The translations under genes were made by a program, and so were the position numbers. Below, in pieces: positions 7,974 through 47,694 of a stretch of DNA of 64,000 nt; the stretch's first letter is position 1, and each line of letters begins with the position of its first letter. The notes below the pieces were generated by a model that was given only the letters and a program-made list of their open reading frames with translations, was not told where the DNA came from and did not search any database. Source of the DNA: Micromonospora halophytica (GTDB taxonomy: Bacteria > Actinomycetota > Actinomycetes > Mycobacteriales > Micromonosporaceae). The stretch lies in the NCBI RefSeq assembly GCF_900090245.1, contig NZ_FMDN01000005.1:248001-312000 (forward strand), written 5' to 3'.

Positions 7974-8819
7974 TCACCGCCCCTCCGGCGTTCTACCTGG
8001 TCGGCGACGCTGCGTCAATGGCTCTTGATCTTCCTGGAGCGACTGCAACGCATCCCTGACCTGCGGCCAGGCGTCCGAATCGGGATCGATGAGGCCGAAG
8101 TGTTCACATTCCGGCAGTTCAACCAGCATGACGTCACCGCCCGCCGCCCGCGCGGCGGCGACGTAGTCCCGGCTCATCGCCACCGGCACCTGTCGATCCC
8201 GCACACCGTGGCAAATCACTGTCCGTGTCGGTGGGGGCACCAGTGCCCGTGGATCGGCGGCCGCGTAACGGTCGGGGTGCTCGCTCGGGCCGCCGCCGAG
8301 CAGCGCGGCCACCGCACCGGCGTCCAGGTCCAGCCGGTACGCCTCGGCGAGGTCGGCGATCGGGGCCAGCGCCAGCACGCCGCGTACGGCGGCCGGGGCG
8401 TGCGCCGCGACGTGGAGCGCGAGGTGCCCGCCGGCCGAGTGGCCGAGCAGCAGCGGCGGCCCGGCGGCCACCCGGCCGGGCAGCGCCCGCCCCGCCAGCC
8501 CGGGCAGCGCCGTCACCCCGGCCAGCACGTCGGTGAGGGTGCCCGGCCAGCCGCCGCCCGGCTGCCCGGTGCGCCGGTACTCGACCTGGGCCACCGGCCA
8601 GCCGAGCCCGGCCAGCGCCGCGGCCAGCGGGCCGGTGTGGGTGCGGTCGTACTCGGCCCGCCAGAAGCCGCCGTGCAGGATCGCGACCAGCGGCCGGAGC
8701 GGGCCGTCGCCGGTCGGGTGGCGCAGGTCGACGATCTGGTCCGGATGGTCCCCGTAGGCCACGGTCGCATCGGGCGGTGGCGCGGGGCGGGTGAGCACTT
8801 CGCGCGGGTCGGCGGACAT
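7974..8819 (-). CDS. Alpha/beta hydrolase, kynurenine-formamidase-like
   Basis: The 281-residue product is an alpha/beta hydrolase. The oxyanion-hole motif HGGFW is at about residue 49, the nucleophile elbow GHSAGGHLA near 140, a catalytic-Asp candidate in VRDRQVP, and a catalytic His in ECEHFGLIDP. The HGGFW and GHSAGG combination is typical of arylformamidase-like and esterase enzymes, but the neighbourhood has no tryptophan-catabolism genes, so the substrate is unknown. The ATG at 8819 follows a TACCGT -10-like hexamer by 7 nt, suggesting a leaderless mRNA. Confidence 0.88.
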   Translation of the reverse strand: MSADPREVLTRPAPPPDATVAYGDHPDQIVDLRHPTGDGPLRPLVAILHGGFWRAEYDRTHTGPLAAALAGLGWPVAQVEYRRTGQPGGGWPGTLTDVLAGVTALPGLAGRALPGRVAAGPPLLLGHSAGGHLALHVAAHAPAAVRGVLALAPIADLAEAYRLDLDAGAVAALLGGGPSEHPDRYAAADPRALVPPPTRTVICHGVRDRQVPVAMSRDYVAAARAAGGDVMLVELPECEHFGLIDPDSDAWPQVRDALQSLQEDQEPLTQRRRPGRTPEGR

Positions 8820-37445: not shown

Positions 37446-39086
37446 TCACCCGCGCAACGCCTCCGGGGCGTGCAGCCGCAGCATGGTGGCCCCGACGTCG
37501 GCGGGCGCCCGGCGGCGGGTCGCCATGGACCCGACCACCATCACGGTGAAGGCGAGCGGCACCGTCCAGGCGGCCGGCTGTGCGGTGAGCGTGGCCGGCC
37601 AACCGGACAGCGGCGGCCCGAGCACGGTGACCAGGACCGCCCCGATCGCCGCACCGCCACCGGCCAGCACGCCGGCCGCCGCGCCCAGATCGGTCAGACC
37701 GCGCCACCAGATGCCGAGCACCAGCAGCGGGCAGAAACTGGACGCGGCCACGGCGAAGGCCAGCCCCACCACCTGGGAGACGTCCAGCCCGGCGACGTTC
37801 AGGGCGAGCACCGCGGGCACCCCGCCGGCGATCACGGTCGCCAGCCGGAAGCCGCGTACCGAGCCGCGCCCCAGCACGTCCGCGGAGATCACCCCGGCGA
37901 CGCTGGTGAGCAGCCCGGACGAGGTGGAGAGGAAGGCCGCGAACGCGCCGGCCGCGACCAGGGCGGCGAGCAGCCGGCCGGTGGTCCCGTCGCCGAGCGC
38001 GGCGCCGGGCAGCAGCACCACCACCGCGTCGGTCTGCCCGGAGACCAGCAGCTGCGGGGTGTAGATCCGGCCGAGCACCCCGTAGATCGTGGGGAGCAGG
38101 TAGAAGGCGCCGACCAGGGCGAGCACCACCAGGGTGGTACGCCTGGCCGCCGCCCCGTCCGGGTTGGTGTAGAAGCGCACCAGGACGTGCGGCAATCCCA
38201 TGGTGCCGAGGAAGGTGGCCAGGATCAGCGAGTACGTGGCGAAGAGGCCACGGTCGTCATCCCCGGCGGTGCTGGGCAGCAGCCAGTCGGCCGCGCCGGT
38301 CGCCACCTGCGAGACCTCGGGCACCCGGTCACCGGCGGCGAAGGTCAACTCGTCGCCGGGGCGTACCTCCCGGACGGTGCCGTCGGCGAAGGTGAGCGCC
38401 GCGCGGTGCTCGACCACGACGGTGGTCGCGGTCCGGAACGCCGGCCCGTCGGGCGGGGTCACCGCGGGGCGGGCGTCGGCCTGCCACTGCAACGCCAGGA
38501 AGATCGCGGGTACGGCCAGCGCGGTCAGCTTGAGCCAGTACTGGAAGGCCTGGACGAAGGTGATGGCGCGCATCCCGCCGAGCGCCACGTTCGCGGTGAC
38601 CACCGCCGCGACCAGCAACGCCCCCACCGGGTACGGCGAGCCGGCCACCGTGGCGAGGGTCAGCCCGGCGCCCTGCAACTGCGGCACCAGGTAGAGCCAG
38701 CCGATGAAGATGACGAAGACGGTGGCCAGGGTGCGCAGCCGGCGCGAGCCGAGCCGCAGTTCGCAGAAGTCGGGCAGGGTGAACGCGCCGGAGCGGCGCA
38801 GCGGGGCGGCCACGAACATCAGCAGGGCGAGGTAGCCGGCGGCGAAGCCGACCGGGTACCAGAGCACGTCGACGCCGTACTTGAGGATCAGCCCGGCGAT
38901 TCCGAGGAAGCTCGCGGCGGAGAGGTACTCCCCGCCGATGGCGGCGGCGTTCCAGGTCGGGCTGACCGCCCGGGAGGCGACCAGGAAGTCGGACGTGGTC
39001 CGGGCCAGCCGCAGCCCGTAGAAGCCGATGCCGAGGGTGACCAGGGTGACCGCCACGATGGCCGGGACGACGAAGCCGTTGCCCAT
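37446..39086 (-). CDS. Sodium:solute symporter family permease (second copy)
   Basis: The 546-residue SSS-family permease has about 13 membrane helices. The N-terminus TSDFLVASRAVSPTWNAAAIGGEYLSAASFLGIAGLILKYGVDVL and the later RFYTNPDGAAARRTT place it with the acetate/carboxylate group, a paralogue of the symporter at 28255. A periplasmic loop around 220-270 is longer than usual. It lies 1 bp after a small membrane protein gene (stop 39088, start 39086), matching the DUF485-symporter layout. Confidence 0.9.
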   Translation of the reverse strand: MGNGFVVPAIVAVTLVTLGIGFYGLRLARTTSDFLVASRAVSPTWNAAAIGGEYLSAASFLGIAGLILKYGVDVLWYPVGFAAGYLALLMFVAAPLRRSGAFTLPDFCELRLGSRRLRTLATVFVIFIGWLYLVPQLQGAGLTLATVAGSPYPVGALLVAAVVTANVALGGMRAITFVQAFQYWLKLTALAVPAIFLALQWQADARPAVTPPDGPAFRTATTVVVEHRAALTFADGTVREVRPGDELTFAAGDRVPEVSQVATGAADWLLPSTAGDDDRGLFATYSLILATFLGTMGLPHVLVRFYTNPDGAAARRTTLVVLALVGAFYLLPTIYGVLGRIYTPQLLVSGQTDAVVVLLPGAALGDGTTGRLLAALVAAGAFAAFLSTSSGLLTSVAGVISADVLGRGSVRGFRLATVIAGGVPAVLALNVAGLDVSQVVGLAFAVAASSFCPLLVLGIWWRGLTDLGAAAGVLAGGGAAIGAVLVTVLGPPLSGWPATLTAQPAAWTVPLAFTVMVVGSMATRRRAPADVGATMLRLHAPEALRG

Positions 39087-39087
39087 C

Positions 39088-39498
39088 TCAGCGCTCCGGC
39101 CGCTCGACCAGGTCGGTGAAGTCCTGCTCGTTGCGTTCGGCCAGCCGCACGTACGCCCAGCCCACCGCGATCAGGAAGGGGAAGGAGACCACCCCGAGCA
39201 GCAGCCAGGGCAGGTTGACCCCGAGCACGGTGACCCGGCCGACGGTGGGCGCGATGGCGAAGAGCCCTGGCAGGCCGCCCAGCCCGACGAGCACCACCAG
39301 GGAGAGCCGCAGCGCCAGCGACAGTTGGGCGCGGACCAGCCCGCGCACCAGCGCCTCGCCGACCCGGGTCTGCTGGGCCAGTTCGGTGCGGGTCCGGCCG
39401 GCCCGGCTGTCCCGGCGGGTGACCTCGGCCAGCACGATCCGCACCCGGGGCTGCGGTTGCGGCGCGCGGGGGGCGGGCAGCGGGTCGTCGGCGGTCAT
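39088..39498 (-). CDS. Small two-helix membrane protein, symporter partner
   Basis: The 136-residue product has an Arg-rich N-terminus (about 1-50) and two membrane helices (LRLSLVVLVGLGGLPGLFAI and LPWLLLGVVSFPFLIAVGWAYVRLA) with a charged tail. It corresponds in position and size to the DUF485 partner of SSS permeases, though the sequence is not a clear DUF485. Promoter and DnaA boxes lie just upstream. Confidence 0.78.
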   Translation of the reverse strand: MTADDPLPAPRAPQPQPRVRIVLAEVTRRDSRAGRTRTELAQQTRVGEALVRGLVRAQLSLALRLSLVVLVGLGGLPGLFAIAPTVGRVTVLGVNLPWLLLGVVSFPFLIAVGWAYVRLAERNEQDFTDLVERPER

Positions 39499-39535
39499 CT
39501 GGGCAGTCTCGCCTGCTCACGCGGGATGTCAAGGG

Positions 39536-39589
39536 TTGTCCACCGGGGCTGTGGACAACCTGTGGACAAAGCTTCGATCCTGTGGACAA
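39536..39589. promoter_or_regulatory. Cluster of four DnaA boxes
   Basis: Three perfect boxes, TGTGGACAA on the plus strand at 39550-39558, 39561-39569 and 39581-39589, accompany TTGTCCACC (8 of 9) at 39536-39544. Actinobacterial DnaA boxes follow TTGTCCACA. A slightly AT-richer stretch with two CATTAAG copies (39603-39609, 39613-39619) follows. The cluster sits in the divergent space between the second symporter operon and the first surface paralogue. There is no dnaA/dnaN here. Confidence 0.75.
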
Positions 39590-39660
39590 CCGCGCGGTGG
39601 CGCATTAAGACACCATTAAGTCCCGCCAGTTTCACCCTTTGTGTTGGTCGGAGTACCTCC

Positions 39661-39689
39661 TTGCCGGTCTTGAGGCGGCCCCCTACGCT
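39661..39689 (+). promoter_or_regulatory. Sigma-70-type promoter of first surface paralogue
   Basis: TTGCCG (39661-39666) and TACGCT (39684-39689) are separated by exactly 17 nt, 43 bp before the ATG at 39732. Confidence 0.6.
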
Positions 39690-39731
39690 GAGGCGGCAAT
39701 TCCCTGTTTCCTCTTCATCCACGGGGTTTCT

Positions 39732-41096
39732 ATGCGCAAATTCCGCACTCTGCTCGGCGCGACCCTCGCCGGAGCCTGTGCCCTGGCCGTCGTCCCGGGT
39801 ACGGCGTCCGCGGCTCCCGCTGTCACGCCGCAGGCCGTGGCCGGTCTCGCCGACACGACCGGCGCCTACTACCCGCTCTCGCCGTACCGCCTCATGGACA
39901 CCCGCTCCGGGCTGGGCGGCAAGACCGGGAAGATCGGGCCGCTGAGCAAGTTCGACCTCCAGGTCTCCGGCCGGGGTGGCATCCCCGCCAGCGGCGTCGG
40001 CGCGGTGGTGCTGAACGTGACCATCGTCAACCCGACGGCCGACAGCTTCGTCACCGCGTACCCGGCGGGCGAGGCCCGGCCGGACGCCTCCTCGGTCAAC
40101 TTCGCCAAGGGCTGGCTGGGCTCGAACAACGTCACCGTGAAGCTCGGCTCCGGCGGCAAGGTCTCGGTCTACAACCGCAACGGGTACACGGACGTGGTGG
40201 TCGACGTCGTCGGCTTCTACGCCAAGGACGACACGATGGTCGACCGCAACGGTGGCCAGTACGAGTGGCACTACCCGGCGCGGGTCTTCGACACCCGTAA
40301 CGACCCGGAGGGCAAGCCGCCGGCCGGCACCGTTCTGGAGTACTCCCTCAGCTTCGAGGACCAGGACCAGCACGCGCACATCAAGTCCCTGGTCCTGAAC
40401 CTCACCGCGGTCGCCCCGGCCAGTGCCGGCTACCTGACCGCCTGGTCGGGTGCGGGCAGCCGCCCGGTCTCCTCGACGGTCAACTACGGCGCGGGCGTCA
40501 ACGTGCCGAACCTGGCCTTCGTGCGGACCACGCCGTGCCTCGCCACCGACGGCTGGTGCATCACCGGCGCGCCGAAGTTCAAGATCTACACCCACGCCGC
40601 GGCGCACGTCCTGGTCGACTTCGTCGGTCTGGTGGACGACGGTTACAGCCCGCTCGGCCTGCGGTTCTCGCCGATGAGCCCGACCCGGATCGTGGACAGC
40701 CGGATCAACCTGGGCATCAGCGGCGCGCTCGGCGCCGGCTCGGTCGCCAGCGTCACCCCGCCGGGCGGCATGATCACGGACGCGACCGAGGTGCTGGTCA
40801 TGAACCTGACCGCCGTGAAGCCGACCAAGAACACGGTCCTCACCGTGTGGCCGGACGACCCGGAAATCCTCAAGCCGGAGACGAGCAACCTCAACCCGTA
40901 CGCCAACCAGATCGTGTCCAACGCCGTGCCCGCGGTGATCTACCCGTACGGCGCGTTCAACGTGCACAACCTCACCGGCACCACCCACGTGGTGGCCGAC
41001 GTGGTCGGCACGTTCTACTGGCCGGCTCCGGCGGCGGCCCTCAAGGGCGGCGCGACCAAGAGCAAGCCGCAGGTCACCGGATCCTCGCACCGCTGA
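39732..41096 (+). CDS. Secreted DTR/NVT-repeat protein, paralogue 1
   Basis: The 454-residue product has a Sec signal peptide (MRKFRTLLGATLAGACALAV, cleavage near ASA-AP). The mature protein has three related modules. Each starts with a D[TS]R motif (RLMDTR near 55, RVFDTR near 193, RIVDSR near 320) and contains VVLNVT-, YPAG/P-, NVTVKLG- and VVDVVGFY-type strands. The pattern predicts beta-rich domains seen in actinobacterial surface proteins without known function. No wall-sorting motif is visible. The ATG at 39732 precedes the signal peptide; an upstream TTG lacks a purpose. It has its own promoter and a terminator. Confidence 0.85.
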   Translation: MRKFRTLLGATLAGACALAVVPGTASAAPAVTPQAVAGLADTTGAYYPLSPYRLMDTRSGLGGKTGKIGPLSKFDLQVSGRGGIPASGVGAVVLNVTIVNPTADSFVTAYPAGEARPDASSVNFAKGWLGSNNVTVKLGSGGKVSVYNRNGYTDVVVDVVGFYAKDDTMVDRNGGQYEWHYPARVFDTRNDPEGKPPAGTVLEYSLSFEDQDQHAHIKSLVLNLTAVAPASAGYLTAWSGAGSRPVSSTVNYGAGVNVPNLAFVRTTPCLATDGWCITGAPKFKIYTHAAAHVLVDFVGLVDDGYSPLGLRFSPMSPTRIVDSRINLGISGALGAGSVASVTPPGGMITDATEVLVMNLTAVKPTKNTVLTVWPDDPEILKPETSNLNPYANQIVSNAVPAVIYPYGAFNVHNLTGTTHVVADVVGTFYWPAPAAALKGGATKSKPQVTGSSHR

Positions 41097-41113
41097 TCCT
41101 GCACCGCACCACG

Positions 41114-41146
41114 AATGGGCGCCCGGCCGACGGCCGGGCGCCCATT
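41114..41146 (+). terminator. Terminator after paralogue 1
   Basis: A perfect 15-bp stem (AATGGGCGCCCGGCC with its complement) encloses loop GAC and is followed by CCCC. It begins 18 nt past the stop of paralogue 1. Confidence 0.85.
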
Positions 41147-41290
41147 CCCCATCAACGGTCACCGGCCCTATTCCGGCATTGATCCGCATACACACCCGAT
41201 GCCCCCGTTCAGCACTCCGAACCCGGTGCCGCTGATCGACGGCCGTCGGTAGGTGTGCCGGCCTGTCCATTTCTGCTACGAGGGATCTCC

Positions 41291-42574
41291 ATGCGCAAAC
41301 TTCGTGCTCTGCTCGGCGCGACGGTCGCCGGGGCATGTGCAGTCACGTTGCTGCCCGGGGTGGCCGCCGCCGCTCCGCCCCCGTCGTCCACCGCGGTCGA
41401 CGTCACCGGAACCTACTACCCGGTCACCCCCACCCGGCTCGTGGACACCCGCACCGGACTGGGTGTCCCGGCGGCTGCCAAGATCGGCCCCGGGCAGACC
41501 GTCGAGTTCCAGGTCGCCGGCCGGGGCGGGTTGCCGTCCGCTGGCGTCGGCGCGGTCGTGCTGAACGTGACCGTCACCGGCCCCACGGCGGCCAGCTTCG
41601 TCACCGCGTACCCGACGGGCCAGGCCCGGCCGAACGCCTCCTCGGTGAACTTCCCGGCAGGCTGGCTGGGGTCCAACAACGTCACGGTGAAGCTCGGCAC
41701 AGGCGGGAAGGTGTCGGTCTACAACCGCAACGGTCACACCGACCTGGTGGTCGACGTGACCGGCTTCTACGCCGCCGACAACACCCTGGCCGCCCGCGGC
41801 ATGGGCAGCCGCTACCACCCGCACCCCCCGCACCGGCTGTACGACAGCCGGGTGGACACCAAGCGGCCGGCCGGCAGTGTCCTGGACCTGACCATGCTGC
41901 ACGGGGGCGACAATCCGCACGTCCGGGCGTTGGTCGTCAACGTCACCGTGGTCGACCCGGAATCCGCCGGCTTCGTCACCGTCTGGTCCGGCGCCGCCGA
42001 CCAGCCGGCCGTCTCGACGGTGAACTTCACCGCCGGCACGATCACGCCGAACCTGGCCATCGTGCAGACCAGACCCTGCGACGAGGACGACTTCTTCTGT
42101 GGTCCGGCCGGCGCGCCGACGTTCCGGCTCTACACCTCGACGCGGGCGCACGTGGTCGTCGACACCGTCGGCATGTTCGACGACGGCACGCTGCTGTTCG
42201 GCCGGCGGTTCCAGCCGATGAACCCGACCCGGATCGTCGACAGCCGGATCGGCCAGGGCCTCCCGGCGGCGCTCGGCCCGGACTCGACCGGCAGGGTCAC
42301 CGCACCGGCCTCGATGGTGGGCAAGGACGAGGACGTCCTGGTGCTGAACGCGACTGCGGTGGCGCCGACGAACAACACCGTGCTCACCGTCTGGCCGGCG
42401 GACTACGAGGGCACCGTCCGGCCGCAGGCCAGCAACGTCAACCCGGCCGCCGGTCAGACCGTCTCGGCGGCGGTGTTCGCCGAGTTGGGTCCGTACAAGC
42501 GGTTCAACGTGCACAACAATGCGGGCACCACGAACGTCGTCATGGACGTCGTGGGCCGGTTCTACTGGCCGTGA
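41291..42574 (+). CDS. Secreted DTR/NVT-repeat protein, paralogue 2
   Basis: The 427-residue product repeats the same plan: signal peptide MRKLRALLGATVAGACAVTL, then modules starting RLVDTR (near 50), RLYDSR (near 180) and RIVDSR (near 315), with VVLNVTVTGPTAASFVTAYP, NNVTVKLGTGGKVSVYN and DLVVDVTGFYA. It is the most compact of the three and lacks extra domains. A ribosome-binding-site-like GAGGGA lies 5-6 nt before the ATG. No clear -35/-10 pair was seen upstream. Tandem gene duplication from its neighbours is the likely origin. Confidence 0.85.
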   Translation: MRKLRALLGATVAGACAVTLLPGVAAAAPPPSSTAVDVTGTYYPVTPTRLVDTRTGLGVPAAAKIGPGQTVEFQVAGRGGLPSAGVGAVVLNVTVTGPTAASFVTAYPTGQARPNASSVNFPAGWLGSNNVTVKLGTGGKVSVYNRNGHTDLVVDVTGFYAADNTLAARGMGSRYHPHPPHRLYDSRVDTKRPAGSVLDLTMLHGGDNPHVRALVVNVTVVDPESAGFVTVWSGAADQPAVSTVNFTAGTITPNLAIVQTRPCDEDDFFCGPAGAPTFRLYTSTRAHVVVDTVGMFDDGTLLFGRRFQPMNPTRIVDSRIGQGLPAALGPDSTGRVTAPASMVGKDEDVLVLNATAVAPTNNTVLTVWPADYEGTVRPQASNVNPAAGQTVSAAVFAELGPYKRFNVHNNAGTTNVVMDVVGRFYWP

Positions 42575-42635
42575 CCCTGGCCCGGTGGCCCCGGTCACGG
42601 TCCGGGCACGTCTTCTCCGTGCACCGTGAATGCGC

Positions 42636-42664
42636 TTGTCCACATTGATCACCGCCCCTACTCT
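42636..42664 (+). promoter_or_regulatory. Promoter of paralogue 3 overlapping a DnaA box
   Basis: TTGTCC (42636-42641) and TACTCT (42659-42664) have a 17-nt spacer. A perfect DnaA box TTGTCCACA (42636-42644) covers the -35 element. The ATG lies 37 nt downstream of the -10. Confidence 0.6.
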
Positions 42665-42700
42665 GGGCCGACAATCCTTCTCTTCTTCCACGGGGTGTCC

Positions 42701-44812
42701 ATGCGCAAAATCCGCACTCTCCTCGGCGTCACCGTCGCCGGGGCATGTGTGCTGGCGGGGCTGCCGGGCGTCGCGCTCGCCGCGCCCACCGCGCCGTTCA
42801 AGGTCCTCACCGTCGACGTGGGCGACCAGACCGGCGGCTACCCGATCTACCAGTCCGGTGTGTACGACACCGGCAACTCCACCCTCTCGCTCACGCCGGA
42901 CTCGCTGGACCGCATCTCCGTCTACGCGAACCAGAGCGGCTCCTACGTCAACCTCCGGACCGAACCGCCCACCGGACAGAAGTGGGTCGAGGGGCAGACG
43001 TACCGGGCCGCCGAGCTGGCCGACGCCACCTCCGCCGGCCTCAGCCTCGCCTCGGACGGCCGGGGCTGCGGAAACACCACCGGTTCGATCACCATCCGGG
43101 AGGTCGGCCGCAACGCGGAGACCGGCCTGGTCGAGAAGTTCGCCGCCTCGTACGACTACAGCTGCCCCGGCGGTAACAAGAGCGGCGTGATCAGCGGCGA
43201 GCTGCGCTGGGACTCCTCGGTGGACTACGTGGTCGCCCACGGCTCGCCGAACCCGGTCTCGTTCGGGTACCAGGAGCTGGCGGTGCGCAGCGCGGCCAAG
43301 ACGGTCACGTTCACCTCGGTCGGCAGCAAGCCGATCACCTTCGGCGCCGCCAGCATCGGCGGCCCCACCCCCGACTCCTTCAGCGTCACCGGCTCCGACT
43401 GCACCGGTCGGATGCTCGCCCCCGGCGAGACCTGCACGGTCTCCGTGGTGACCCACCCGGTCAAGGAGGGCGTCCAGACGGGCAGCCTGCTGCTCGCCGA
43501 CGACAGCTCCACCGGCACCCGCCGGGTGCAGCTCTCCGTCGAGGCGTTCCGCGGCGTCACCGGGATGTACTACCCGATCTCCCCGGCCCGGATCATGGAC
43601 ACCCGGACCGGCCTGGGCGCGCCCAAGGCCAAGATCGGGGCTGCCAAGAAGGTCGACCTCCAGGTCGCCGGTCGTGGCGGGGTGCCGAGCAGCGGGGTCA
43701 GCTCGGTGGTGCTGAACGTGACCGTCACCGGTCCCACGGCCAGCAGCTTCCTCACCCTCTACCCGGCGGGGCAGAGCCGGCCGACCGGTTCGTCGATCAA
43801 CTTCCCGAAGTACTGGCTCGGTTCGAACAACGTGACCGTGAAGCTGGGCTCGGGCGGCAAGGTGTCGATCTACAACCACGCCGGCTCGACGGACGTGGTG
43901 GTGGACGTGGTCGGCTTCTACGCCGGCAACAACTCGATCTCCAGCCGCGGCTGGGGCAGCCAGTACCAGTGGTTCAAGCCGTCCCGCCTCTGGGACAGCC
44001 GCACCGACGGGGGCGCCCTGCCTGCCGGGTACTACACCGATGGAGCGGTGGACTTCGGCGCGAGCTTCAGCCCGAGCGTGCGGGCCGTCGTCGTCAACAT
44101 CACCGCCGTCTCGCCGAAGAAGGCCGGCTTCCTGACGGCTTGGGACGGAGCGGGTGACGTGCCCACGTCCTCGACGGTGAACTACGGCGCCGGCAAGGTG
44201 GTGCCGAACCTCGCGGTGGTCAAGGTTCGCCAGGAGTGGAACAGCAGCAAGGGCTACTACATGCCCTGGTTCGCGGTCTACACCTCGCAGACCTCGAACA
44301 TCGTCATCGACCTGGTGGGCGTGATGGACGACGGGACGGTCCCCGACGGCCTGCGGTTCACGCCGCTGGCCCCGACCCGGATCGTGGACAGCCGGATCAA
44401 CCAGGGCATCCCCGGCGTGATCGGTCCCGGGGCGGTCGCCAAGGTCACCGCCCCGGCGAACCTGGTGACCGACTCGACCGAGGCGCTGGCGATGAACGTC
44501 ACCGCCGTGTCGCCGACCAACAACACGGTGCTCACCGTCTGGCCGGCCGACTACGGCATGAGCAAGCCGACGGCCAGCAACCTCAACCCGGCGGCCGGGC
44601 AGATCGTGTCCAACGCGGTGATGGGGGTCATCGGCCCGCAGGACGCGTTCCACGTGCACAACCTCTCCGGCAGCACCCACCTGGTGGCCGACGTGGTCGG
44701 CACCTTCTGGCTCTACCCGGGCACGGCCAGCGCGGCGACGCTGACCAGGGCGGGAGCTGGCGAGCGACCCGAGGTGGTCGGCTCGACGCAGCGCGTCACC
44801 CGACGCGGCTGA
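42701..44812 (+). CDS. Secreted DTR/NVT-repeat protein, paralogue 3 with extra N-terminal domains
   Basis: The 703-residue product has the same signal peptide type (MRKIRTLLGVTVAGACVLAG). Residues about 30-170 form a unique region. Residues about 180-285 form a choice-of-anchor/ASPM-SPD2-Hydin-like Ig domain (TVTFTSVGSKPITFGAASIGG, ESCTVSV-type LAPGETCTVSV, GVQTGSLLLADDSSTGTRRVQLSV). Three modules starting RIMDTR (near 300), RLWDSR and RIVDSR then match the paralogues. ASH/Ig-like domains often mediate adhesion or protein binding. Start, promoter and leader match paralogue 1. A terminator follows at 44824. Confidence 0.85.
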   Translation: MRKIRTLLGVTVAGACVLAGLPGVALAAPTAPFKVLTVDVGDQTGGYPIYQSGVYDTGNSTLSLTPDSLDRISVYANQSGSYVNLRTEPPTGQKWVEGQTYRAAELADATSAGLSLASDGRGCGNTTGSITIREVGRNAETGLVEKFAASYDYSCPGGNKSGVISGELRWDSSVDYVVAHGSPNPVSFGYQELAVRSAAKTVTFTSVGSKPITFGAASIGGPTPDSFSVTGSDCTGRMLAPGETCTVSVVTHPVKEGVQTGSLLLADDSSTGTRRVQLSVEAFRGVTGMYYPISPARIMDTRTGLGAPKAKIGAAKKVDLQVAGRGGVPSSGVSSVVLNVTVTGPTASSFLTLYPAGQSRPTGSSINFPKYWLGSNNVTVKLGSGGKVSIYNHAGSTDVVVDVVGFYAGNNSISSRGWGSQYQWFKPSRLWDSRTDGGALPAGYYTDGAVDFGASFSPSVRAVVVNITAVSPKKAGFLTAWDGAGDVPTSSTVNYGAGKVVPNLAVVKVRQEWNSSKGYYMPWFAVYTSQTSNIVIDLVGVMDDGTVPDGLRFTPLAPTRIVDSRINQGIPGVIGPGAVAKVTAPANLVTDSTEALAMNVTAVSPTNNTVLTVWPADYGMSKPTASNLNPAAGQIVSNAVMGVIGPQDAFHVHNLSGSTHLVADVVGTFWLYPGTASAATLTRAGAGERPEVVGSTQRVTRRG

Positions 44813-44937: not shown

Positions 44938-45600
44938 TCAATCCAGGCCCACCCGCTGCGGCCGGGCGGTGGCGGAGCCGAGCCAGGTGTGCGGGTTGCC
45001 GTACCAGCACCAGCCGAGCTTCGGCGCGCCCTGGCTGATCCAGAGTGCCGGCACCCGCTTGTCCCCGCAGCGGGAGCCGACCAGCGAGAAGCACTTGTTC
45101 TTCGCCAGCGCCACCGGGTGCAGCGTGACCAGGGCCAGGCCCTCGTCGATGGTGAGCGGCAGCCGGCCCTGGCCGGTGATCACCTCCATCGCTGCGGCGG
45201 GGGCCAGGTTGAGCGTCTCCTCGCCCCGGTCCACGTCGAAGAGCAGGTACGCCGGCCCGGCCGGCACCTCCAACTCCTTGATCGGGTCGAAGCGTGCCAG
45301 GTCACCGTCGGCGTAGTGCCGGTCGACGATGCCCGGCTTGCGTTTGCCGGCCAGGGTGGTCAGGGCGACCCGCTCCTCGACCGGCACGAGGTCCCGGGTG
45401 GTCACCAGCAGGAAGGGGACCCGGGCCTCGGTGGGCGGTGGCAGTTCGGCCGTGCCGGCGACGGCGGCGTCCCGCAGTGGCGCGACCAGGTCGCGGAAGG
45501 TGTCCTCGGTGATGCCGGCGAGGGCCGGGTAGCCGAGGTGGACGAGGGTGTCGACCTGACGGTCGAACTCGGCGGCGGCGTCGAATCGGCGGTCGGGCAA
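44938..45600 (-). CDS. DUF5701 family protein
   Basis: The 220-residue soluble protein fits the DUF5701 family: FDRQVDTLVHLGYPALAG, VPFLLVTTRDLVPVEERV, LFDVDRGEETLNLAPAAAMEVI and ending GCxWYGNPHTWLGSATA. Four cysteines (KNKCFSLVGSRCGDK, GWCWYG) are present but no metal site is established. The TTG at 45600 is chosen because GGAGG lies 5 nt upstream. Confidence 0.83.
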   Translation of the reverse strand: MPDRRFDAAAEFDRQVDTLVHLGYPALAGITEDTFRDLVAPLRDAAVAGTAELPPPTEARVPFLLVTTRDLVPVEERVALTTLAGKRKPGIVDRHYADGDLARFDPIKELEVPAGPAYLLFDVDRGEETLNLAPAAAMEVITGQGRLPLTIDEGLALVTLHPVALAKNKCFSLVGSRCGDKRVPALWISQGAPKLGWCWYGNPHTWLGSATARPQRVGLD

Positions 45601-45677: not shown

Positions 45678-46439
45678 TCAGCGGCTCCAGTCCTGCTTCG
45701 CCGCCCGCACCAGCTTGTCCTTCAGCTCCCGGGTGTGCCGCCGGCTCACCGGCAGCTCCGTCGAGTCGATCACCACCACGTAGCCCGAGTTGACCAGCCG
45801 CAGCTCGGCGATCAGCTTCAACTGCACCAGGTACGACCGGTGGATCCGCACGAACCCGGCGTCCGCCCACCGCTCGGCGAGCGTCGCCAGCGACACCCGG
45901 ACCAGGTGCGAGCCCTCGGCGGTGTGCAGCCGCGCGTAGTCGCCCTGCGCCTCCACCCAGCGCACCGCCGAGCGGGGCAGCATCCGGGTCGTGCCGGCCA
46001 GCTCGACCGGGATGGTCGGGTCCTCCTCCGCCCGGGCGAGGGCCGCCGGATGCGACGGGACCACCCGCGAGCCGATCACCCGGCGCAGCGACTCGGCCAG
46101 CCGATCCGCCCGGACCGGCTTGCGCACGTAGTCGGTGGCGCCCAGGTCGAAGGCGTCCACCGCGCCGTCGTCGTATGCGGTGACGAAGACGATCGCCGGG
46201 GGCCGGGCGAACCGGCGCAGCACCCGGGCCAGCTCCATGCCGTCCAGCCCGGGCATCCGGATGTCCAGGAAGACCACGTCCACGTCGGCGTCGCGGAGCA
46301 CCCGCAGCGCCTCGGTGGCGTCGCCCGCCGTGTGCAGCCGGGCCACCCGGGGATCCGCCCGCAGGTGGTACGCCAGCTCGTCCAGCGCCGGCGGCTCGTC
46401 GTCCACCGCCAGCACCCGCAGAAATCCGGACGTGTTCAC
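45678..46439 (-). CDS. LytTR-family response regulator
   Basis: The 253-residue regulator has a receiver domain (about 5-125) with the phospho-acceptor in VVFLDIRMPGLDGMEL, a Thr and Lys in VTAYDD and YVRKPV, and a C-terminal LytTR DNA-binding domain (about 145-250: SAVRWVEAQGDYARLHTAEGSHLVRVSLATLAERW, RIHRSYLVQLKLI). The partner kinase gene lies 31 bp upstream. LytTR/LytS pairs in this lineage commonly control carboxylate symporters, and two SSS operons lie within 20 kb. Confidence 0.95.
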   Translation of the reverse strand: MNTSGFLRVLAVDDEPPALDELAYHLRADPRVARLHTAGDATEALRVLRDADVDVVFLDIRMPGLDGMELARVLRRFARPPAIVFVTAYDDGAVDAFDLGATDYVRKPVRADRLAESLRRVIGSRVVPSHPAALARAEEDPTIPVELAGTTRMLPRSAVRWVEAQGDYARLHTAEGSHLVRVSLATLAERWADAGFVRIHRSYLVQLKLIAELRLVNSGYVVVIDSTELPVSRRHTRELKDKLVRAAKQDWSR

Positions 46440-46450
46440 CGCGTCGACCC

Positions 46451-46479
46451 GGTTCGCTCGCTGCGCTCGCTCACGAACC
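46451..46479. repeat. Short REP-like palindrome at the kinase stop codon
   Basis: GGTTCG (46451-46456) and CGAACC (46474-46479) flank a GCTCGCTGCGCTCGCT-type core that is itself near-palindromic. The kinase stop TGA lies within it, so the element ends the reading frame. Confidence 0.55.
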
Positions 46480-47694
46480 CGCCCGTACGCCGGGATGGAA
46501 CTTCGGCACCCGCAGACTCACCTTCGTACCCGAGCCGGGGCCGGTCTCGACGACCAGGCCGAACCGGTCCCCGAAGACCGACCGGAGCCGCTCGTCGACG
46601 TTGGAGAGGCCGACGTGCTGGCCCGGGTCGTCGGTCGGGTCGCTGCCGGCGCGGGCCAGCTCGGCGATGCCCGCCGTCAGCGTGGCCGGATCCATGCCCA
46701 CTCCGTCGTCCTCCACCGTTATGTGACACTCCGCGCCCGCGTCCCGGGCCTCGATGCTCACCATGCCGGTGCCGGGCTTGCGGGACAACCCGTGCCGGAC
46801 GGCGTTCTCCACCAATGGTTGGAGGCAGAGGAACGGCAGGGTTACCGGCAGCACCTCCGGCGCGATCTGCAACCGCACCTGCAACCGGTCGCCGAACCGG
46901 GCCCGCTCGATGGTCAGGTAGCGGTCGATCGAGCGCAGCTCCTCGGCGAGCGTGGTGAACTCGCCGTGCGCCCGGAACGAGTACCGGGTGAACTCGGCGA
47001 ACTCCAGGATCAGCTCGCGGGCCCGTTCCGGGTCGGTGCGGACGAACGAGCCGATCGCGGTCAGCGCGTTGTAGATGAAGTGCGGGCTGATCTGGGCCCG
47101 CAGTGCGCGGACCTCGGCCCGGGCCAGCCGCTCCCGCGACGACTCCAGCTCGGCGAGGGCGAGCTGGTCCCCGGCCCAGTGCGCGGTCTCCAGGGTGGCC
47201 TGCACCAGCCCCGGCGCGGGTGGGGCGTCGGCGACCGCGACCAGCGCGCCGACCACCCGCCCGTCGGCGCTCAACGGGGCCAGCACCGCCCCGCGCACCG
47301 GGCAGTCCACCCGGTCGCAGCGCAGCTCCGAGTCGCCGAGCACCGTCGACCGGCCCGCCTCCACCGTGCGCCGGGCCGCCGCCAGCAGTTGGTCGCCGTG
47401 GTGCGCGCCGCGACCGTCGAGGGCGAGCAGCTGGTCGCGGTCCGTCAGCGCCAGCCCGGCCGCGCCCACCAGGGCCCGCAGATGGCGTACGGCCTTCGCC
47501 GCGCCCGCCGGGCTCAGCCCTGCCCGCAGCGGCTCGGCGGCCAGGCCGGCGGTGTGCAGCACCTCGTAGGTGGCCCGCTGGCTGGCCGTGGCGATGCCCC
47601 GCCGGCCACGCAGCCGCAGCGCCGCCCAGAGCGCCGCGGCCAGCGCGGTGACCAGCGAGACGACGCCGACGACGGCGGAGAGGTTGCCACCCAC
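46471..47694 (-). CDS. LytS-type sensor histidine kinase
   Basis: The 407-residue kinase has one N-terminal membrane helix (VVGVVSLVTALAAALWAALRL), a GAF-like domain (about 70-200: HGDQLLAAARRTVEAGRSTVLG), the His_kinase domain with QISPHFIYNALTAIGSFVRT (phospho-acceptor His near 235) and a HATPase domain with PLVENAVRHGL and ITVEDDGVGMD. This is the LytS/YehU arrangement that partners LytTR regulators. The GTG at 47694 has a weak ribosome-binding site. The C-terminus is shortened to VRAGS at the REP-like repeat. Confidence 0.93.
   Translation of the reverse strand: MGGNLSAVVGVVSLVTALAAALWAALRLRGRRGIATASQRATYEVLHTAGLAAEPLRAGLSPAGAAKAVRHLRALVGAAGLALTDRDQLLALDGRGAHHGDQLLAAARRTVEAGRSTVLGDSELRCDRVDCPVRGAVLAPLSADGRVVGALVAVADAPPAPGLVQATLETAHWAGDQLALAELESSRERLARAEVRALRAQISPHFIYNALTAIGSFVRTDPERARELILEFAEFTRYSFRAHGEFTTLAEELRSIDRYLTIERARFGDRLQVRLQIAPEVLPVTLPFLCLQPLVENAVRHGLSRKPGTGMVSIEARDAGAECHITVEDDGVGMDPATLTAGIAELARAGSDPTDDPGQHVGLSNVDERLRSVFGDRFGLVVETGPGSGTKVSLRVPKFHPGVRAGS

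Follow-up and report, generated by a model that had tools for sequence, protein, structure and literature searches.

The window analysed here is a stretch of 64,000 nucleotides from Micromonospora halophytica (contig NZ_FMDN01000005.1, C31:248001-312000; genome of 6.27 Mb in 64 contigs), and the element in question is an intergenic array of three perfect copies of TTGTCCACA, the DnaA box of M. tuberculosis and S. coelicolor (PMC4285127 Table 1). The three boxes, designated A, B, and C, lie between a DUF485-symporter operon and a tandem family of DTR genes, and form direct repeats on the reverse strand with the geometry A-N11-B-NN-C (Table 1). An earlier, sequence-only reading of this DNA had placed three perfect boxes and one 8/9 box at 39536-39589, together with a fifth perfect box at 42636-42644, and both sequence and coordinates proved exact. 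Its reading of the sites as actinobacterial DnaA boxes is likewise well supported, by the published box and by the organism's own dnaA-dnaN gap (L004), which also contains three perfect TTGTCCACA copies, so that the array boxes match the box of the chromosomal origin, oriC. Scanning the window for tRNAs and, at gathering scores, against Rfam returned nothing.

Table 1. Features of the array locus, in window coordinates.
Feature	Position	Strand	Remark
DnaA box A (TTGTCCACA, perfect)	39581-39589	-	First of three direct repeats
DnaA box B (TTGTCCACA, perfect)	39561-39569	-	11 bp past A
DnaA box C (TTGTCCACA, perfect)	39550-39558	-	2 bp past B, with which it makes a close pair
Weak inverted box TTGTCCACC (8/9)	39536-39544	+	Beyond C
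-35 TTGACA, DUF485-symporter operon (divergent)	39527-39532	-	17 bp from box C; putative promoter, deduced from sequence conservation
-10 GAGACT, DUF485-symporter operon	39505-39510	-	Spacer of 16 bp to the -35; start codon 6 bp further on
DUF485-like gene	39088-39498	-	Below the Pfam cut-off; one match in each of 61/61 genus genomes
Sodium:solute symporter (SSF) gene	37446-39086	-	
DTR paralogue 1	39732-41096	+	Between DUF5701 and the array; not counted in the element
Fifth perfect box TTGTCCACA	42636-42644	+	Covers the -35 of DTR paralogue 3
DUF5701 gene	44938-45600	-	In several of the relatives inspected, close to the array on its 5' side
LytTR response regulator gene	45678-46439	-	
Sensor histidine kinase gene	46471-47694	-	Adjoins the LytTR regulator

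Perfect DnaA boxes in the genome

The perfect word TTGTCCACA occurs 32 times in 6.27 Mb, against seven occurrences of the reversed word, and 28 of the 32 copies fall outside called genes as delimited by a crude in-house gene caller. At up to one mismatch the genome-wide matches are at background level (406 versus 441 for the reversed word), and the nine boxes of this quality in the window, compared with a shuffle mean of 5.03 and with 8 of 100 shuffles reaching nine, do not amount to an unusual density; the DnaA-box signal here is that of the perfect boxes. At least three of them within 100 bp are encountered at three places only: (i) the array, (ii) the dnaA-dnaN region, that is, oriC, and (iii) C28:160933-160994. 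With three perfect boxes, predicted to be of high affinity, within 40 bp and at a distance of ~111 kb from oriC, the array has the composition of an extra-oriC DnaA-box cluster.

Conservation of the three-box module

The genus sample comprised 61 genomes of Micromonospora sensu lato, including Verrucosispora and Salinispora, and was searched with the spacing fixed, the degenerate positions open, and up to three mismatches. The module is present as a single copy in 59 of the 61 genomes, and the reversed-pattern control in none of the 61. As to the two misses, G057 carries the module with a 3-bp B-C gap (L106), and in G052 an inserted gene of 358 amino acids separates A from B, the A-like box being imperfect as judged by eye (L130 11383-12860); this split array is a natural disruption and makes a useful comparison. 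A sample of 250 genomes of the family contains the module in 59 of 63 genus members, the extra misses G185 and G259 displaying an A-B distance longer by two and one bases, respectively, with a degenerate B box in G259. The search for the form with three bases between B and C (gap-3) matches 15 of these 63 genomes, among which only the place in G057 was opened.

Conservation follows the boxes, with mean bits per column over the 59 arrays of 1.76 in the boxes, 0.97 in the spacers, and 0.36 in the flanks. The motif CACA is constant in 177 of 177 boxes, and 128 of the 137 departures from TTGTCCACA affect positions 3 or 5, the positions at which DnaA boxes are known to vary. Part of this skew was selected for: in the query, position 3 was unconstrained in boxes A and B, and either of two letters was accepted at positions 3 and 5 of box C. 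Beyond C, the GTCCACC part of TTGTCCACC recurs with a common flank in six sampled genomes, M. halophytica included, and among these only M. halophytica displays the full 8/9 match (both by eye); the inverted box is a weak extra only.

The gap-2 and gap-3 patterns each match 107 of the 250 family genomes, both counts mixing the array locus with oriC, the gyrB-gyrA gap, and weak matches. A further set of 80 named loci was chosen by DUF485 similarity, several duplicating genomes of the genus sample and therefore not independent of it. Among these, 62 belong to Micromonospora, Verrucosispora, or Salinispora, comprising 53 with the gap-2 form, two with the gap-3 form, and seven with neither; of these seven, two have an upstream sequence shorter than 70 bp and another two one of just ~1.5-1.7 kb.

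Distribution in other genera and families

A class-wide search at up to two mismatches discloses the module in 17 of 394 genomes, three of the genus and 14 of other families. Thirteen of the 14 out-of-family modules are no more than 1.5 kb away from dnaA or dnaN; the remaining one is at a contig end. Within the family, 20 places were opened: the eight in genera g11 and g40 all correspond to the dnaA-dnaN region, and most of the others are the array locus, the exceptions being L178 and L182, which are unrelated or unclear, and L171, which is a second copy in G136. This adjacency to dnaA and dnaN in other genera provides the strongest reason for taking DnaA as the ligand of the array. In addition, the oriC of M. 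halophytica itself contains two perfect boxes 20 bp apart, the same arrangement as A-B.

The gap-2 array extends to genera g2, g8, g10, g32, and g36, and to g37 at two mismatches. The gap-3 form is usual in genus g29, which apparently includes Actinoplanes cyaneus; each of its 60 sampled genomes gives one or more gap-3 matches, some of them at other loci, for example the gyrB-gyrA gap. Thirty gap-3 loci were retrieved, of which 19 have a LytTR gene adjoining the array; this gene mostly ends directly ahead of it. In Actinoplanes the start of the array generally follows right after this gene, and the last gap of the array, B-C, is usually 3 bp. A further gap-3 box cluster recurs in g29 (L355, L363, L373, L383, and L384), located in L383 between a RibD_C-domain gene and a gene of 593 amino acids without Pfam match. 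The possibility that every locus of a lineage moved together from a 2-bp to a 3-bp gap was considered and rejected, because the gyrB-gyrA boxes of Micromonospora display gaps of 3-4 bp (by eye).

Chromosomal position and companion clusters

The sequence-only reading had stated that no dnaA is nearby, which is true within the window; nevertheless, dnaA lies on the same contig, and the three perfect boxes of its dnaA-dnaN gap place oriC ~111 kb from the array, equivalent to 1.8% of the genome. Among 34 genomes with array and dnaA on one contig, the array is located 98-150 kb 5' of dnaA in 32 (median 112.9 kb) and on the strand of dnaA in all 34.

Two companion clusters accompany the array. The gyrB-gyrA gap contains two TTATCCACA boxes in 21 of the 21 Micromonospora genomes examined, situated ~8 kb from dnaA in M. 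halophytica (L386 ~8295-8350; relatives, L387-L406). The cluster at C28:160933-160994 (L003 4934-4995), with three perfect boxes at start spacings of 21 and 32, lies upstream of a ThiF-domain gene that has matches in 61 of 61 genus genomes. At least one box is found within 250 bp in all 30 ThiF-upstream loci opened, and three boxes in 17 of them; the distance of this cluster from dnaA was computed for 21 genomes, the eligible G026 and G052 not among them, and in 19 of these it lies 5' of dnaA at 0.9-1.2 Mb. Given the conservation of both clusters, the array seems to be a member of a small set of conserved DnaA-box clusters. A second cluster of Actinoplanes was compared with the mycobacterial Rv0010c-Rv0011c site, discussed below, and the identity was rejected because the Actinoplanes cluster sits in the gyrB-gyrA gap. 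As a separate observation, gyrA of M. halophytica (L386:4488-8270, reverse strand) probably holds an intein, since it displays a LAGLIDADG domain and a weak intein-splicing match.

Neighbouring genes and promoter context

The placement of the array varies across the 61 genomes: it precedes the DUF485 gene in 43, an OmpR-type regulator gene in 15, and a carboxypeptidase-regulatory-domain gene in one (G017), is split in one (G052), and is cut by a contig end in one (G009). Pfam identified the OmpR-type gene in one case (L117), and the remaining 14 were recognised by sharing its start sequence. In G004, G014, and G040, the array and the DUF485 gene occupy different contigs. The promoter of the DUF485 gene is conserved as TTGACA, a spacer, and GAGACT, followed by the start codon, and a leaderless transcript is likely since the -10 lies immediately before the coding region (Table 1). 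In the 43 genomes with the array at this gene, it stands 5-176 bp upstream of the -35. In the 17 genomes with the array elsewhere (the 15 above, G017, and G052) the DUF485 promoter is still recognisable, and no box, even with one mismatch allowed, lies 400 bp or less from it.

Other loci separate the array from its neighbours in different ways. L082 retains the array with a remnant of the OmpR gene between it and the promoter (by eye), and L253 (G243) and L254 (G237) each contain two box sites, the complete array beside DUF485 and, beside the OmpR-type gene, a B-C pair. In three loci of the Actinoplanes group (L257, L261, and L262) the array lies ~180, 350, and 640 bp from the next gene. Since the array stands beside varying genes, no single neighbour explains its retention, and the constant target gene expected of a DnaA-regulated promoter is not found among the 61 placements.

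On the other side, the array is 142 bp from the start codon of DTR paralogue 1. The three DTR paralogues (39732-44812) have no Pfam match at E 0.001; paralogues 1 and 3 have a common promoter layout, not clearly extended to paralogue 2, and G038 and G040 contain 16 matches each to paralogue 1. DTR genes occur at the array locus in seven of the 61 genus genomes, with a weaker match somewhere in 21. Five more close relatives were opened, and three of them (G232, G185, and G259) also have DTR genes at this locus.

Proposed function and alternative explanations

The sequence, conservation, geometry, and position of the array, as well as its independence from any one neighbouring gene, are direct observations. 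Judging from its box sequence and from the same module beside dnaA and dnaN in other genera, it is very probably bound by DnaA, and on balance it is best regarded as a conserved chromosomal DnaA-binding site outside oriC that would act on DnaA availability; a role in replication timing also appears reasonably probable. DnaA would bind the close pair B-C and box A, about two helical turns further on and on the same face, generating a small DnaA assembly. At ~111 kb from oriC the array is copied soon after initiation, and owing to this early replication it may, by analogy with the mycobacterial and B. subtilis clusters discussed below, hold DnaA at that stage. The replicated array would then most likely tie up DnaA or help to change its nucleotide state, thereby limiting re-initiation. 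Of the two functions put forward by the sequence-only reading, titration of DnaA away from oriC remains the leading one, and control of the DTR/NVT surface genes is not supported. Effects on adjacent promoters may be secondary. A more elaborate proposal, by which the array would be a dedicated Micromonosporaceae replication-control element switching DnaA between its ATP and ADP forms in the manner of datA or DARS, with the gyrB-gyrA and ThiF clusters as a spaced set, is doubtful.

Several observations weigh against a site acting on DnaA availability, including (i) the end of the array 17 bp upstream of a good -35 in M. halophytica and, in 28 of the 43 genomes with the array at DUF485, distances to the -35 of 5-7 or 16-18 bp, about one helical turn apart, both suiting a promoter role; (ii) the 20-bp box pair, which recurs in just 3 of the 21 oriC regions inspected in the genus; (iii) four loci, L263 (g6), L264 (g31), L265 (g34), and L266 (g22), where the 4.5 kb preceding DUF485 contain no box, some genomes of these four genera having gap-3 matches at other places; (iv) G012 and G008, in which the array is on the opposite side of dnaA, at 287 and 349 kb; (v) the constant distance to dnaA, which may merely reflect conserved gene order around oriC; and (vi) the binding in vivo of only 13 of 32 consensus single boxes in E. 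coli (PMC11317965).

The main rival is a direct effect on the adjacent promoter, in which DnaA would chiefly control transcription of the neighbouring operon, namely the DUF485-symporter pair here and an OmpR-type regulator-kinase pair elsewhere. It agrees with the placement of the array before the start of DUF485 in 43 and of an OmpR-type gene in 15 of 61 genomes, with the recurrent distances to the DUF485 -35, and with the action of DnaA as a transcription factor in E. coli (PMC11317965). On the other hand, the downstream gene varies, 17 genomes (three via separate contigs) keep the DUF485 promoter with no box nearby, three Actinoplanes-group arrays stand ~180-640 bp from the next gene, and L082 retains the array despite the loss of most of the OmpR gene. 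As the principal function this is unlikely, and it may hold alongside a replication role in M. halophytica.

The repeats might instead be sites of the neighbouring LytTR response regulator, whose gene lies on the 5' side in many loci opened; LytTR regulators bind 9-bp direct repeats with 10-13 bp spacers, which would suit the array. This is very unlikely, as the repeats carry the actinobacterial DnaA-box sequence (PMC4285127 Table 1) and its variation pattern, and the same module adjoins dnaA or dnaN in other families. In the g32 loci L168-L170 the array is present with no full-length LytTR match in the 8 kb covered, although a copy may exist elsewhere in those genomes. Regulation of the DTR/NVT surface proteins by DnaA, which the sequence-only reading had suggested, draws on the array upstream of paralogue 1 and on the perfect box over the -35 of paralogue 3, and is more improbable still: it was rejected because DTR genes are missing at the locus in most array-bearing genomes (DTR in 7/61 versus the array in 59/61). 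The position of that fifth box is correct; nevertheless, in G038 and G232, the two relatives in which the promoter could be aligned (by eye), the best-matching promoters lack the box, which was for this reason rejected as part of the element and is probably a chance variant of the TTG[CT]C -35 of that promoter. Chance clustering of a common word accords with the counts at up to one mismatch, which are within the shuffle range in the window and equal to those of the reversed word in the genome, yet it is extremely unlikely in view of the 32 perfect boxes versus seven and of a module found in 59 of 61 genomes versus none for the control.

As a candidate site acting on DnaA availability, the array offers a precise 40-bp element whose geometry is fixed, whose gap-2 form occurs a single time in each genome, and for which partner sites are predicted; its depth of conservation, together with this geometry and its independence from neighbours, makes it a good test case. 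Replication timing in antibiotic-producing filamentous actinomycetes is little known. A literature search covering mainly open-access, top-ranked titles found no published description of the array.

Comparison with known DnaA-box clusters

Clusters of DnaA boxes outside oriC are already a known kind of element, and the array is no surprise in principle. Among the five genomic sites that DnaA occupies in mycobacteria is the intergenic Rv0010c-Rv0011c cluster, which is bound in vitro and whose homologous region is bound in vivo in M. smegmatis; mutants of this site display longer cells, and the expression of its two neighbours is unaltered in dnaA mutants (PMC7738170). The array resembles it as an actinobacterial intergenic cluster of DnaA boxes, here predicted, outside yet near oriC. 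It differs in its neighbouring genes, in its three direct repeats compared with the palindromic arrangement of the mutated mycobacterial boxes, and in distance, the mycobacterial site being at ~13.6 kb in a genome with dnaA at position 1. In Streptomyces coelicolor, a DnaA-box cluster outside oriC reportedly affects replication, a finding ascribed to Smulczyk-Krawczyszyn in 2006.

In B. subtilis, removal of all six DnaA-box clusters leads to early initiation, partially relieved by restoring one, and the role of these clusters is also played down in the same review (PMC5295017). They share with the array a location outside oriC, and differ in being six redundant clusters of another phylum.

The E. 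coli locus datA requires IHF and contains five boxes in ~1 kb, and the core boxes of DARS run in opposing directions. Unlike DARS, the array has A, B, and C all on one strand, followed in M. halophytica only by the weak inverted 8/9 box. The likeness to datA and DARS lies in their being noncoding DnaA-box loci (PMC5295017), and the relative distances of these loci to oriC are conserved among E. coli (PMC5010248).

The internal architecture of the array finds a parallel in E. coli chromatin immunoprecipitation sequencing, which indicates a preference of DnaA for pairs of boxes 2 or 3 bp apart (PMC11317965). The B-C gap is 2 bp in most Micromonospora and 3 bp in most loci of the Actinoplanes group and in two Verrucosispora, whereas the E. 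coli targets include genes of nucleotide synthesis, replication, and repair, and the array has a third box 11 bp off. The 2-bp and 3-bp gaps between the paired boxes of these lineages constitute a natural comparison.

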